From the NCBI GenBank assembly GCA_005880445.1, contig VBGJ01000154.1:1-39523 (forward strand): 39,523 nucleotides of DNA, read 5' to 3'. Positions 19,517 through 33,276 of this stretch are shown here, piece after piece; position 1 is the stretch's first letter; every line of letters begins with the position of its first letter. The notes under the pieces were generated by a model. That model saw nothing but the letters and a program-made list of their open reading frames with translations. It was not told the DNA's origin and did not search any database. This DNA is from Chloroflexota bacterium (GTDB taxonomy: Bacteria > Chloroflexota > Dormibacteria > Aeolococcales > Aeolococcaceae). Both the position numbers and the translations under genes were made by a program.

Positions 19517-19638
19517 GGAGGGTTGGGTCGGGGGTTGCCGAGGGCGTAGGAGGCCGCGGCTGCCCCCGCGGCCGAGGGGAGCGGCAGCGGACACCAGTCA
19601 GGGTGTCCGCGCAGCGGCAACCAAGGCGACCACCCTCC
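19517..19638 (+). repeat. Structured element A (three-way junction), plus orientation
   Basis: An outer stem of about 20 bp pairs 19517-19540 with 19615-19638: GGAGGGT/ACCCTCC, GGTCG/CGACC and GGTTGCCG/CGGCAACC, separated by small bulges. It encloses two perfect hairpins: GGCCGCGG/CCGCGGCC with a 6-nt loop (19552-19573) and GCGGACACC/GGTGTCCGC with a 6-nt loop (19587-19610). The 13-nt linker between them is GAGGGGAGCGGCA. Element B, read on the minus strand, has the same plan and a matching linker. The element lies between the dedA stop and the pan operon promoter. Whether it acts as RNA or DNA is not known; no coding frame or T-run explains it. Confidence 0.7.
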
Positions 19639-19656
19639 CAACCCCTCGTCGATCAA

Positions 19657-20355
19657 CTACCCAGCCTGCTGCTCGACGTGCTGCCCCAACGCGCCCACAG
19701 CGAGACACAGCGGGCACGCCCCGCCGCTCCAGTCCTCCACCGCCGAGCGGCGACCGCGGCGGACAGCCCATACGCCGAGCCCGCCGGCAAGCAGCGCGGC
19801 GACGCCAATGGCCACCGGCACGGTCCAGTGGGCGAGCGCGTACTCCGCCGCAGGACCCAGGACGATCCCGAGAACCAGGTGGCTCTGCACGAAGATGGTG
19901 CTTCCCGCAAGCAAAAGAGGGAACAGCCACCGCAGCCGTAGCCCGGAGGTGCCGGCGGCGATCACGGTGGCGGTGCGAAGCCCAGGTGTCGCTCGCCCGG
20001 TGATGACAGCAGCGGCCCCGCGCCGGCGCAGCAAGGCACCGACGCGGTTCAGGCGAGGCTCGGTGAGCCCGACCCGGGCCCCGAACCGGCGGACCAGGAC
20101 GCGCCCCGGGCCGTGCGCAGCCAGCAGCAGCGCCCCGGTCCCGATGACGGCCGCGAGCTCGCAGCCGATAACCGCCGCCCACACTGGGAACCCGCCGGTG
20201 GCCACTCGGGCGCCGAGCACGAGCACGACGATGTCACCCGGCAGCGGAATCGGCACGCCTGCCTCGACGAGCACGACGACCCCAAGGATCGCGGGCCCGC
20301 CGGCAGCGGCGATGCCGCTGGCCGCCGCCGCTGCGACCAGTCCGAGCGGGCTCAT
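19657..20355 (-). CDS. DedA family (VTT domain) membrane protein
   Basis: 232 residues from ATG 20353-20355; a TTG three codons upstream is possible. An N-terminal hydrophobic segment is followed by the DedA/VTT signature (VVLVEAGVPIPLPGDIVVLV, re-entrant loop), a VIGCELAAVIGTGALLLAAH helix, an Arg-rich loop with RATPGLRTATVIAAG, and two C-terminal membrane helices. The tail CPLCLAVGALGQHVEQQAG is unusual. DedA proteins act in membrane lipid carrier recycling or proton-coupled transport; the substrate here is unknown. The gene is framed by elements A and B, and its start codon lies in a perfect 14-bp palindrome. It has no clear ribosome binding site. Confidence 0.85.
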   Translation of the reverse strand: MSPLGLVAAAAASGIAAAGGPAILGVVVLVEAGVPIPLPGDIVVLVLGARVATGGFPVWAAVIGCELAAVIGTGALLLAAHGPGRVLVRRFGARVGLTEPRLNRVGALLRRRGAAAVITGRATPGLRTATVIAAGTSGLRLRWLFPLLLAGSTIFVQSHLVLGIVLGPAAEYALAHWTVPVAIGVAALLAGGLGVWAVRRGRRSAVEDWSGGACPLCLAVGALGQHVEQQAG

Positions 20356-20366
20356 TGGATCCAATG
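20353..20366. promoter_or_regulatory. Perfect 14-bp palindrome CATTGGATCCAATG over the dedA start
   Basis: The sequence equals its own reverse complement over 14 bp and contains the dedA ATG at one end. It lies immediately beside element B. It could be an operator or chance; a 14-bp perfect palindrome is rare enough to note. Confidence 0.4.
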
Positions 20367-20370
20367 GAGA

Positions 20371-20497
20371 GGGCCGGCATGACGGGGGTGCTGGACACGC
20401 GGTCGGCGACGGCAGTCGCCGTCGCTCGCCGCTCGCGCTCGGCCCGACGGACCGGTCGGGCCTGCGCGATGGTCCTGCACCCCCGTCACCCCGGCCC
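20371..20497 (-). repeat. Structured element B (three-way junction), minus orientation
   Basis: The outer stem pairs 20371-20396 with 20472-20497: GGGCCGG/CCGGCCC, an internal loop, GACGGGGGTGC/GCACCCCCGTC, one T/T mismatch, and GGAC/GTCC (22 bp in all). Inside are two perfect hairpins: GCGACGGC/GCCGTCGC with a 4-nt loop (20406-20425) and GGCCCGAC/GTCGGGCC with a 6-nt loop (20441-20462). Read on the minus strand, the linker between them is GAGCGCGAGCGGCGA, close to the element A linker. The enclosed segment is 75 nt against 74 in A. It fills the gap between ftsH and dedA and would be transcribed in the same sense as those genes. Confidence 0.7.
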
Positions 20498-30399: not shown

Positions 30400-33276
30400 A
30401 TGATCAGCGCGAGCCCGACGCCGCTCGAAACGGACGTCACCGCCGACGCGGAGCAGCAGCGCGCGATCGACCATCTCGAGGGGCCGTGCCTCGTCCTCGC
30501 CGGTCCTGGAAGCGGAAAGACTCGCGTCATCGTCGAGCGCTTCATCGCGCTCACCCGGCGCGGCTTCCCCCCGGAGCAGCAGCTTGTGCTCACATACACG
30601 AACAAGGCCGCTGCCGAGATGCGCGAACGCGCGGAAGCGGCACACGGACCGTTTGCGGGCGAGCCGCCGCTGACCACGTATCACGCATTCGCATATCGTG
30701 TGGTGCGCGACTGGGGATGGCTGGCCGGCACCTCGCCCGCCGTTCGCATCGCCGACGCCGCAGAGCGCTGGCTGCACGTGGCCGCAGTACTCGAGGAGCT
30801 GCGCCCGCACACCCTGTGGAACCCGCTCCGCCCGCACGACCTCATGGATCCGCTCCTCGCGGTGATCGGATACGCGAAGCAGGAGCTCGTGCCGCCGGAA
30901 GCGTACGCATCGTGGGCTGTGCAACACCTCGAGACGTGCGCCGACCCGGCCGAGCGCATGCTGCTGGAGCGGCATCGGGAGGTCGCCGATGTGTACCGGC
31001 GGCTCGACGAGCGGTACCGGCGCCACGGCGTGTTCGATCACGATGACTGCATCCTCTACGCGGAACGGCTCATCCGTGAGCAGCCGGCGGTTCGCAGCGC
31101 CGTCGCCGGCCGCATCCGGTACGTCATGGTCGACGAGTACCAGGACACCAACTTCTCGCAGGCGCGCCTCGTGGAGACGCTGGTCGCGGACCACGGCAAC
31201 GTCCTGGTCGTCGCGGACGACGACCAGTCGATCTACAAGTTCCGCGGCGCCAGCCGCGCCAACCTCGAGCGGTTTTCGCGCACGTATCCGAACCACGTCG
31301 CCATCCGTCTGACGCACAACTACCGCAGCACCGAGCAGATCGTCGACGCGGCGCACGCGATCATCGGTGGCGCCGGCCCGGCAACCCGCATCGACAAGCA
31401 GCTGGTCGCGGATCGCGGCGCCGGCGCCGTGGTGGAGGTATGGGAGGCCGATGACGGGCGGGACGAGGTGCGTGCTGTCGCCACGCGCTGTCGTGAGCTG
31501 CTCGATGAGGGCACTCCTCCGAACGACATCGCATGGCTTTTCCGTCAGCACGTCGACATGCAGCCTGCGATGCATGCGCTGCGTGACGCCGGCGTCCCAT
31601 ATCAGGTGTCGGGGGGACGTGGATTCTTCCAAGAGCGGGAGATCAAGGATGCGTTCGCGCTCCTGGCTGCGGCGGAGGACCCCGGCGACTCGCTTGCGCT
31701 GCTCCGCTGCCTGACTCTGCCCGCGTGGGGGGTGACGAACACCGGGCGCCTGGCCCTGGTTCGCGCGACGCGCGATCACGACGTCGACCTGGCCACGTTG
31801 ATCGCCGGCGCACGTATCGACGATCTCGACGACATCGACACCGCTGCCGCCCGGCGTTGCGTCGACGACGTCGTCGACCTGCACGCGCTGGCGCAGCGCG
31901 ACGACGTGCGCGACGTGTTCTTCGCCGCGATGGAACGCAGCCGCTATCTCGGTGTGCTCGACGAGCAGAGCGGCGCCGCGCGCATGCAGGTGGGTGCGAA
32001 CCTCAACAAGCTCGCAGACCTGCTCGAGACGTTCGCGGACTGGAGCGATGACCGCCACGTCAGCAAGGCACTCGCATACCTGCAGGTGCTGCGCGACAGC
32101 CGGGAAGCGGGAGAGCTCGCCTCGATCGAGCCGATCGAGGATGGCATCGTGCTGCTGACCGCGCACGGCGCGAAGGGGCTGGAGTGGCCTACGGTGTTCA
32201 TCGCACGCTGCACGGCGCACCGCTGGCGGGGGCGTCCCCCGTTGTCCTTCGACCTGCAGCTTCCCGACGAGCTCGTGCCCGAAGCGCCGCCGGAGGGTGA
32301 CGCGGCCATCGACGAAGAGCGGCGGCTGTTCTACGTGGCGGCGACCCGCGCGCGCGATCGGCTGGTGTGCACGTGGGCGCATCGGTATCCCGGATCGATC
32401 GGCGAAGAGGAGCGCACTCCCTTTCTCGAGACCGTGGTCGGTGCCGCGGCGCGCGGCGTCGACGTTCCGGCAACCGGTGCACCGATGATGCGGCCGGCTC
32501 GCGCATCCGGCGCGCCGGCGCCGCAGCGACTGTCCATCGCCGTCTCCGATCTGCGCACGTTCAAAGAATGCCCCCGACGGTACGAGTACCAGCGGCGCTG
32601 GCAGCTGCCGGTCCGCGCCGGCGTGCGCAGCTGGTACGGGTCATTGATGCACCAGGTCTTGCACCAGGCTGGTACGCAGCGCGTGGCCGGCGTCACGGTC
32701 GACGGAGACGTGGTCGCCGCGCAGTGGCACAGCGCGTGGGACGCGTCGCGCGGGCCCAAAGGCCGGCATCGCGATCTGCGGGCGCACGGTGAAGAGCAGC
32801 TCCGTCGCTACATCGCTTCGCCCGCGTGGTCTGAGGCCGTCATCGAAAGCGTCGAGGAGCCGGTGGGACTCGACCTCGACGCGGCGCACGTGAGGGGCAG
32901 GTTCGACCGGGTGGACCGCGGCGCCGGCGGTGCGCCCACGGTCGTCGATTACAAGACGGGCAATCCGCACGACGAACCGTCGCTTCGTCGCGACCTGCAG
33001 CTACGGGCCTACGCGGTGGCGGCGGCGCAGCGCGCGCGAGCTGACGATGTCGCGGTGGAGTTCCACTACCTGCACACGGGGGATGTCACCCGCGTGGTCG
33101 CGGACCGGAAGTTCCTCAACACGGCGTACCGCCATCTCGCGTTGACGGCGCAGGACATCGCGATTGCTACCCGCGAGGGCGTCTTCCCGCCGAAGCCGTC
33201 ACGCTGGCAGTGCACGCACTGCGATTACCGCACCATCTGCGACGAGGGAATTGCCGCCGCACGCGAGTCCGCGTGA
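30400..33276 (+). CDS. UvrD/Rep-type helicase fused to a PD-(D/E)XK (RecB-like) nuclease with Fe-S cysteines
   Basis: 958 residues from ATG 30400 (MISASPTPLETD). Superfamily 1A helicase: Q-motif region ADAEQQRAIDH, Walker A GPGSGKTR (35-42), DEYQDTNFSQ, DDDQSIYKFRGA, LTHNYRST, TAHGAKGLEWPTVF and EERRLFYVAATRARDRL. The C-terminal 220 residues are a RecB-type nuclease: SDLRTFKECPRRYEY, GRFDRVDR, VVDYKTG and QLRAYA. One Cys in ECPRRYEY and three near the end (C938, C941, C947) fit an AddB/AdnB-type iron-sulphur cluster. The layout resembles the AdnA/AdnB subunits of actinobacterial end-resection enzymes; no partner subunit is adjacent. It probably acts in double-strand break processing. Confidence 0.93.
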   Translation: MISASPTPLETDVTADAEQQRAIDHLEGPCLVLAGPGSGKTRVIVERFIALTRRGFPPEQQLVLTYTNKAAAEMRERAEAAHGPFAGEPPLTTYHAFAYRVVRDWGWLAGTSPAVRIADAAERWLHVAAVLEELRPHTLWNPLRPHDLMDPLLAVIGYAKQELVPPEAYASWAVQHLETCADPAERMLLERHREVADVYRRLDERYRRHGVFDHDDCILYAERLIREQPAVRSAVAGRIRYVMVDEYQDTNFSQARLVETLVADHGNVLVVADDDQSIYKFRGASRANLERFSRTYPNHVAIRLTHNYRSTEQIVDAAHAIIGGAGPATRIDKQLVADRGAGAVVEVWEADDGRDEVRAVATRCRELLDEGTPPNDIAWLFRQHVDMQPAMHALRDAGVPYQVSGGRGFFQEREIKDAFALLAAAEDPGDSLALLRCLTLPAWGVTNTGRLALVRATRDHDVDLATLIAGARIDDLDDIDTAAARRCVDDVVDLHALAQRDDVRDVFFAAMERSRYLGVLDEQSGAARMQVGANLNKLADLLETFADWSDDRHVSKALAYLQVLRDSREAGELASIEPIEDGIVLLTAHGAKGLEWPTVFIARCTAHRWRGRPPLSFDLQLPDELVPEAPPEGDAAIDEERRLFYVAATRARDRLVCTWAHRYPGSIGEEERTPFLETVVGAAARGVDVPATGAPMMRPARASGAPAPQRLSIAVSDLRTFKECPRRYEYQRRWQLPVRAGVRSWYGSLMHQVLHQAGTQRVAGVTVDGDVVAAQWHSAWDASRGPKGRHRDLRAHGEEQLRRYIASPAWSEAVIESVEEPVGLDLDAAHVRGRFDRVDRGAGGAPTVVDYKTGNPHDEPSLRRDLQLRAYAVAAAQRARADDVAVEFHYLHTGDVTRVVADRKFLNTAYRHLALTAQDIAIATREGVFPPKPSRWQCTHCDYRTICDEGIAAARESA

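Follow-up and report, generated by a model that had tools for sequence, protein, structure and literature searches.

Elements A and B, the two palindromic elements that flank a dedA-like gene in the window (the whole stretch of 39,523 nucleotides analysed here), are two subtypes, one A-like and one B/C-like, of a single unnamed family in Candidatus Dormiibacterota. In this family, a terminal-inverted-repeat stem closes a three-way junction of two hairpins and a conserved linker. We consider it likely that both represent a non-autonomous, REP/MITE-like dispersed intergenic repeat of ~130 nt, the stem of which is maintained and lengthened by template switching during replication, possibly together with selection.

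An unnamed repeat family is thereby added for a little-studied phylum, its hosts being related soil bacteria. Covariation is usually read as a sign of selection on RNA, and the origin of long perfect stems is a standing question. Since dozens of copies exist, and the same loci are found occupied, empty, inverted or extended, mutation-driven and selection-driven covariation become directly comparable. The family cautions that strong covariation alone is no proof of a functional RNA, and provides natural material for testing how hairpins are formed and retained in genomes.

Architecture and folding of elements A and B

Table 1. Features of elements A and B and of the intervening gene, with positions in the window.
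Feature	Position	Strand	Remarks
Element A (A-type copy): outer stem, hairpin 1, linker, hairpin 2	19517..19638	+	fold z −4.95; homologous copies in G000, G009, G003
Left arm of A outer stem, with ~9-nt insertion relative to the other arm	19517..19539	+	two-sided changes across copies
Conserved core of A	19540..19624	+	matches covariance model R1, 108 bits
Hairpin 1 of A, 8 bp, 6-nt loop, GGCC...GGCC	19552..19573	+	4 of 8 pairs with two-sided changes, 0 broken
Linker of A, GAGGGGAGCGGCA	19574..19586	+	
Hairpin 2 of A, 9 bp, 6-nt loop	19587..19610	+	6 of 9 pairs with two-sided changes
Right arm of A outer stem	19625..19638	+	two-sided changes across copies
dedA-like gene between A and B, VTT domain	19657..20364	-	weak match
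Element B (B-type copy)	20371..20497	-	fold z −9.52; homologous copies in G000, G009, G003, G014, G030
One arm of B outer stem	20371..20391	-	19 pairs in 21 positions
Conserved core of B	20394..20475	-	matches covariance model R2, 90 bits
Hairpin 2 of B, 8 bp, 4-nt loop	20406..20425	-	
Linker of B, GAGCGCGAGCGGCGA	20426..20440	-	
Hairpin 1 of B, 8 bp, GGCC...GGCC	20441..20462	-	
Other arm of B outer stem	20477..20497	-	19 pairs in 21 positions

The initial annotation had described two such elements around the gene, and sequence and folding confirm both (Table 1). Single-strand folding yields −78.0 kcal/mol for A and −109.8 kcal/mol for B, compared with means of −59.1 and −67.5 kcal/mol for shuffled sequences, and 0 of 200 shuffles were as good as the native fold for either element on either strand. 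The opposite strands of A and B reach z-scores of −5.31 and −9.39, respectively; both strands thus fold about equally well, and the folding energy gives no choice of strand. For the + strand of A alone, the minimum-energy fold uses partly different pairing.

The nearly shared linker, and the GGCC bounding hairpin 1 in both elements, are likewise as first described, the linker motif GAGCGGC being kept in every A and B copy of the host genome. The long outer stem that had been assigned to both elements holds for B, the arms of which are long and nearly perfect, but only in part for A: its stem is interrupted by ~9 nt and ranks with the weaker ones known for these repeats, with an arm score second-lowest among 22 copies. 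Consistent with the impression that no named family has this plan, Rfam gave no match to A or B at the gathering score, the only matches in the window being two tRNAs.

Distribution of the family

The genome that carries the window (G000) is a draft of 2.2 Mb and ~86% completeness, and all genomes compared are fragmented drafts. G000 contains three close copies of A and a more diverged one at C225, as well as four close copies of B (C25, C33, C221, C72) and a more diverged one at C248; cores within one type are 89–100% identical. In related genomes of other genera, a covariance model of the A core identifies strong copies in G009 (nine) and in G003 (two, besides a reduced copy, C230). Across a phylum-wide sample of 301 genomes it matched only G000 and G009, and the A branch was detected in three genomes (G000, G009, G003). 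The same model also matches two B-type copies (E 5e-5), which indicates that the A and B types are related. Those weak matches of R1 in other genera that were inspected were without the long outer stem and coding-like, and were left uncounted.

Of the 32 genomes and 14 genera of the taxonomic family, 20 genomes and 9 genera are matched by a covariance model built from 12 B/C-type copies (not every weaker match was inspected), with 20 copies in G009 alone. For model R2, which matches the B core (Table 1), the arm-2 structure is off by one, so that R2 is close to a sequence model. Covariance searching of sister genomes, proposed at the outset as a check, thus returned many further copies with the linker kept and with two-sided changes. 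The long outer stem is present in 22 of 22 copies examined, and there are non-orthologous copies with 93% identity. The matches listed from a pattern scan of the genome collection were mostly unrelated, and among them flanking stems were seen only at loci of the Dormiibacterota isolate CP_BM_ER_82.

Inverted repeats comparable to A and B are rare. Within 346 kb of G009, every inverted repeat scoring at least 14 has a loop of at least 87 nt; only 11 are listed. They comprise confirmed elements (25388, 222145) and look-alikes with this plan, and a few are probably due to chance pairing, 7 of that score having come out of an order-2 simulation.

One draft contig of G000 (C33, L006) stops at 32027 inside a B-type core, and assembly breaks may thus hide more copies.

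The outer stem belongs to the element

At L008 and L009 the cores are 100% identical, and the arms score 0.36 and 0.23, compared with 0.39 on average after shuffling. Most stem pairs look unrelated in the same way even around identical cores, although positional similarity is present overall (z 7). The statement that the stems of A and B differ almost completely therefore stands for pairwise comparison only; related copies show that the two stems are homologous and fast-changing.

Unrelated-looking stems around identical cores would also be seen if the core inserted into hairpin loops already in place, such as those of terminators, so that the stem represents the target, and short intergenic hairpins of 10–12 bp do exist in G009. 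However, most copies at different loci in the genus g6 have a common TIR-like stem, GTGGGGAGGGCATG, and terminate in GTGGGG...CCCCAC, which shows that the stem belongs to the element. Moreover, for three g6 insertions the orthologous sites in sister species lack the element, and no more than a few tens of bases, without a hairpin, separate the flanking genes there; hence the element did not enter an existing palindrome. Plain long hairpins are, furthermore, absent from the 346 kb of G009. Insertion into pre-existing hairpins is thus largely refuted, and we give it almost no credence. The empty sites and common g6 stems also rule out a stem built wholly from the local flank, an idea that we retain for the outer extensions only.

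Covariation of the stems

In an alignment of 13 A-type copies with 18 flanking bases, 91.6% of the cells pair; 28 of 35 pairs are altered on both sides, and each of the 18 outer-stem pairs is so altered in some copy. Two-sided cells number 105, compared with 33 after shuffling, and pairing falls to 36–48% when the partner is slid by 1–3 columns. For 14 copies of g6, 97.2% pair, with 47 two-sided cells versus 11 after shuffling. The shuffles leave relatedness in for both alignments, and the slid controls and the orthologous loci carry more weight. At orthologous loci, compensation is seen as a change from GAAC/GTTC to GACC/GGTC in G030 and from GGGG/CCCC to GGCG/CGCC in G023, and a whole stem block is altered in G005 (group 2).

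Covariation of this strength, along with a conserved linker and junction, is what one would expect of a functional structured RNA, that is, an mRNA 3′-end stabiliser or a processing or attenuation element at gene boundaries, with a stem kept paired purely by selection. Retention of the same locus in five g6 species, and of an element between atpA and atpG in five genera, points in the same direction, and a weak hint comes from a slight excess of G-U type wobbles over A-C in the element-sense strand (19 versus 9, not significant). On the other hand, both strands fold equally well, and the orientation of the element relative to the genes is mixed (6 sense and 4 antisense at 10 tandem loci). Two further observations, described below, also tell against a purely selected RNA.

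Core inversion and palindrome growth

In one orthologous group (group 2), G014 and G026 carry the core in the opposite orientation, with respect to its flanks, to that in G019, G005 and G028, although recombination between the arms or independent re-insertion could also have produced this. Extension of the palindrome is clearest at another locus of G014, where the end of the upstream gene (GCTCACCGCGTAG) recurs beyond the right arm as a perfect inverted copy. This copy is missing in the sister G030 and in four empty species, which indicates that the palindrome grew by copying native DNA; a similar inverted copy, CGCTGAG, is found at a third locus in G030. The core inverted at orthologous loci tells against pure selection on an RNA, and inverted neighbouring gene ends are not predicted by it. 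We therefore regard a structured RNA as the sole explanation as unlikely; in the absence of transcription or host-function data, such a role is neither shown nor excluded.

Palindromy around 22 elements reaches ~100 nt per side from the core. Between 26 and 100 nt, the mean score is 18.45 for the 22 loci and 11.37 for 113 element-free gaps (p 1.7e-9), and palindromy was also checked by a cross-locus control. The long outer palindromy of the B copy in the window (B_win) lies in Ala-rich coding DNA, may partly reflect low complexity, and was given no weight. At L059, the conserved end of an HPPD gene (the profile reaches the last residue) contains one arm, and the other is its decayed, noncoding inverted copy. 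At L042, the conserved arm is the start of a ferredoxin gene, with its inverted counterpart in the end of a PII gene, past residue 107 of 123, where the PII profile stops. The initial observation that stems change while the linker is kept is thus borne out by massive two-sided change, with the amendment that the element includes the outer stem, to which copied local DNA has been added at some sites.

Template switching offers a way in which these outcomes may have arisen together. After insertion, the stem-core-stem hairpin would provoke a DNA polymerase to switch template between the arms during replication. Changes would then be copied from arm to arm, so that, according to this proposal, stems vary yet always pair; the switch would also flip the core and would sometimes run beyond the arm, adding an inverted copy of a neighbouring gene end and thus yielding a longer palindrome. 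Selection may contribute by favouring a folded structure of RNA or DNA. Template switching is inferred from its outcomes, the process itself not having been observed, and stepwise compensation under selection could explain part of the pattern; the evidence does not fully separate the two. A bolder formulation, for which we see about even chances, is that of a repeat family with self-renewing arms, in which the mobile part carries the conserved three-way-junction core while switching, after insertion, repeatedly rewrites both arms, adds inverted gene ends and flips the core. Since the arms would be rewritten together, complementarity rather than sequence would be inherited at the ends.

At L042 (2599-3169 in G009), the PII gene carries a C-terminal tail of ~16 residues over the inverted counterpart of the ferredoxin start, and this gene seems to have gained its tail there. 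L215 (G009 C36:193052-193274) contains nested inverted repeats, and its outer arm reproduces in inverted form the 3′ terminus of a cobB-like gene together with the stop codon.

Relation to known repeats

REPs of the GTAG- and CGTC-tagged types are single palindromes of 20–40 bp with conserved sequence (PMC3733652), those with the CGTC tag having been reported without a dedicated transposase. Our family resembles REPs and BIMEs in consisting of dispersed intergenic palindromic repeats beside genes that can fold as RNA or DNA, and B/C-type cores carry a CGTC or CATC motif ahead of hairpin 1. It differs in its length of ~130 nt, its three-way junction with two hairpins and its variable outer stem, and consequently fails the size and single-palindrome criterion. 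A search for the Y1/RAYT transposase (PF01797) in 10 genomes, G000, G009 and G003 among them, gave nothing above the cut-off in these incomplete drafts, and control genomes gave positive matches; identity with a RAYT-REP system was thus discarded.

Two criteria for a MITE are met: (i) the element is short and non-coding with terminal inverted repeats (in g6, the common stem given above), and (ii) both occupied and empty orthologous sites exist in g6. Terminal repeats of MITEs are, however, normally conserved for recognition by a transposase, whereas the ends of the present family diverge strongly and keep their complementarity. One copy in G030 lies between direct repeats of 11 bp, AGTAGCGCCGC, with none obvious at the other loci compared, and no regular target-site duplication was found at the occupied and empty g6 loci compared. 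Mobilisation is thus inferred from dispersal and empty sites, no mobilising enzyme having been found in a search limited to Y1 transposases. A mobile non-coding element is nevertheless the best supported of the three options named in the initial annotation, given the dispersal, the highly similar non-orthologous copies and the clean empty sites.

Template switching is known to create and repair hairpin arms (PMC8794818) and to homogenize arms with inversion of the spacer (PMC8604942), and such mutations have mostly been described as isolated events, in RNA genes and in yeast genes (PMC8794818, PMC8604942). The present family resembles these cases in its two-sided changes of several bases, homogenized arms, inverted spacers and inverted copies of the flank, and differs in that switching is apparently recurrent across a repeat family. 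Criteria for an inverted repeat maintained by template switching are met, as far as outcomes are concerned, by the altered block in G005, the group 2 inversion and the arm growth in G014 and G030.

Integron attC sites combine a variable sequence with a conserved folded shape, and have short conserved end motifs around a variable middle. The present family is arranged the other way round: the middle is kept, and the ends vary.

Genomic context

Elements lie near gene ends, often only 10–20 nt away, and convergent neighbours outnumber divergent ones (~8 versus 3), as might be expected of independent intrinsic terminators or insulators that are alike merely by composition. Yet core and linker are homologous across loci and genera, copies also reside inside the ATP synthase operon and between divergent genes, and no T-run follows the stem, the sequence beyond both arms of A and B being C/G-rich. 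We thus consider this explanation very improbable, and continue to favour a dispersed repeat.

The spacer between ftsH and the DUF2520 gene in G000 holds a ~1-kb insert, B-dedA-A; in the relatives inspected, dedA and both elements are absent from this spacer, and ftsH and the DUF2520 gene are neighbours. The elements may mark how dedA arrived, by recombination between elements, or their position may be coincidence. Although both do flank the dedA-like gene as initially noted, they belong to two subtypes and are not a matched pair built around it. In G002, the same spacer (L180 1790-2360) contains two elements of the same plan with a different core that is similar between the two.

An element of the same plan also occupies the atpA-atpG spacer (L228, L229, L231, L238) in G000 and four other genera, with different stems, partly different cores, and opposite orientation in G009 and G003; in other genera this spacer mostly measures 5–58 nt. 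The site is possibly an insertion hot spot, or else an old insertion in the operon. Two multi-hairpin elements of G009 (C36:58987-59179 and 330447-330596) have a further core type in common (CCGTCACGGAGGCGAG...), which is present at atpA-atpG of G009 as well.
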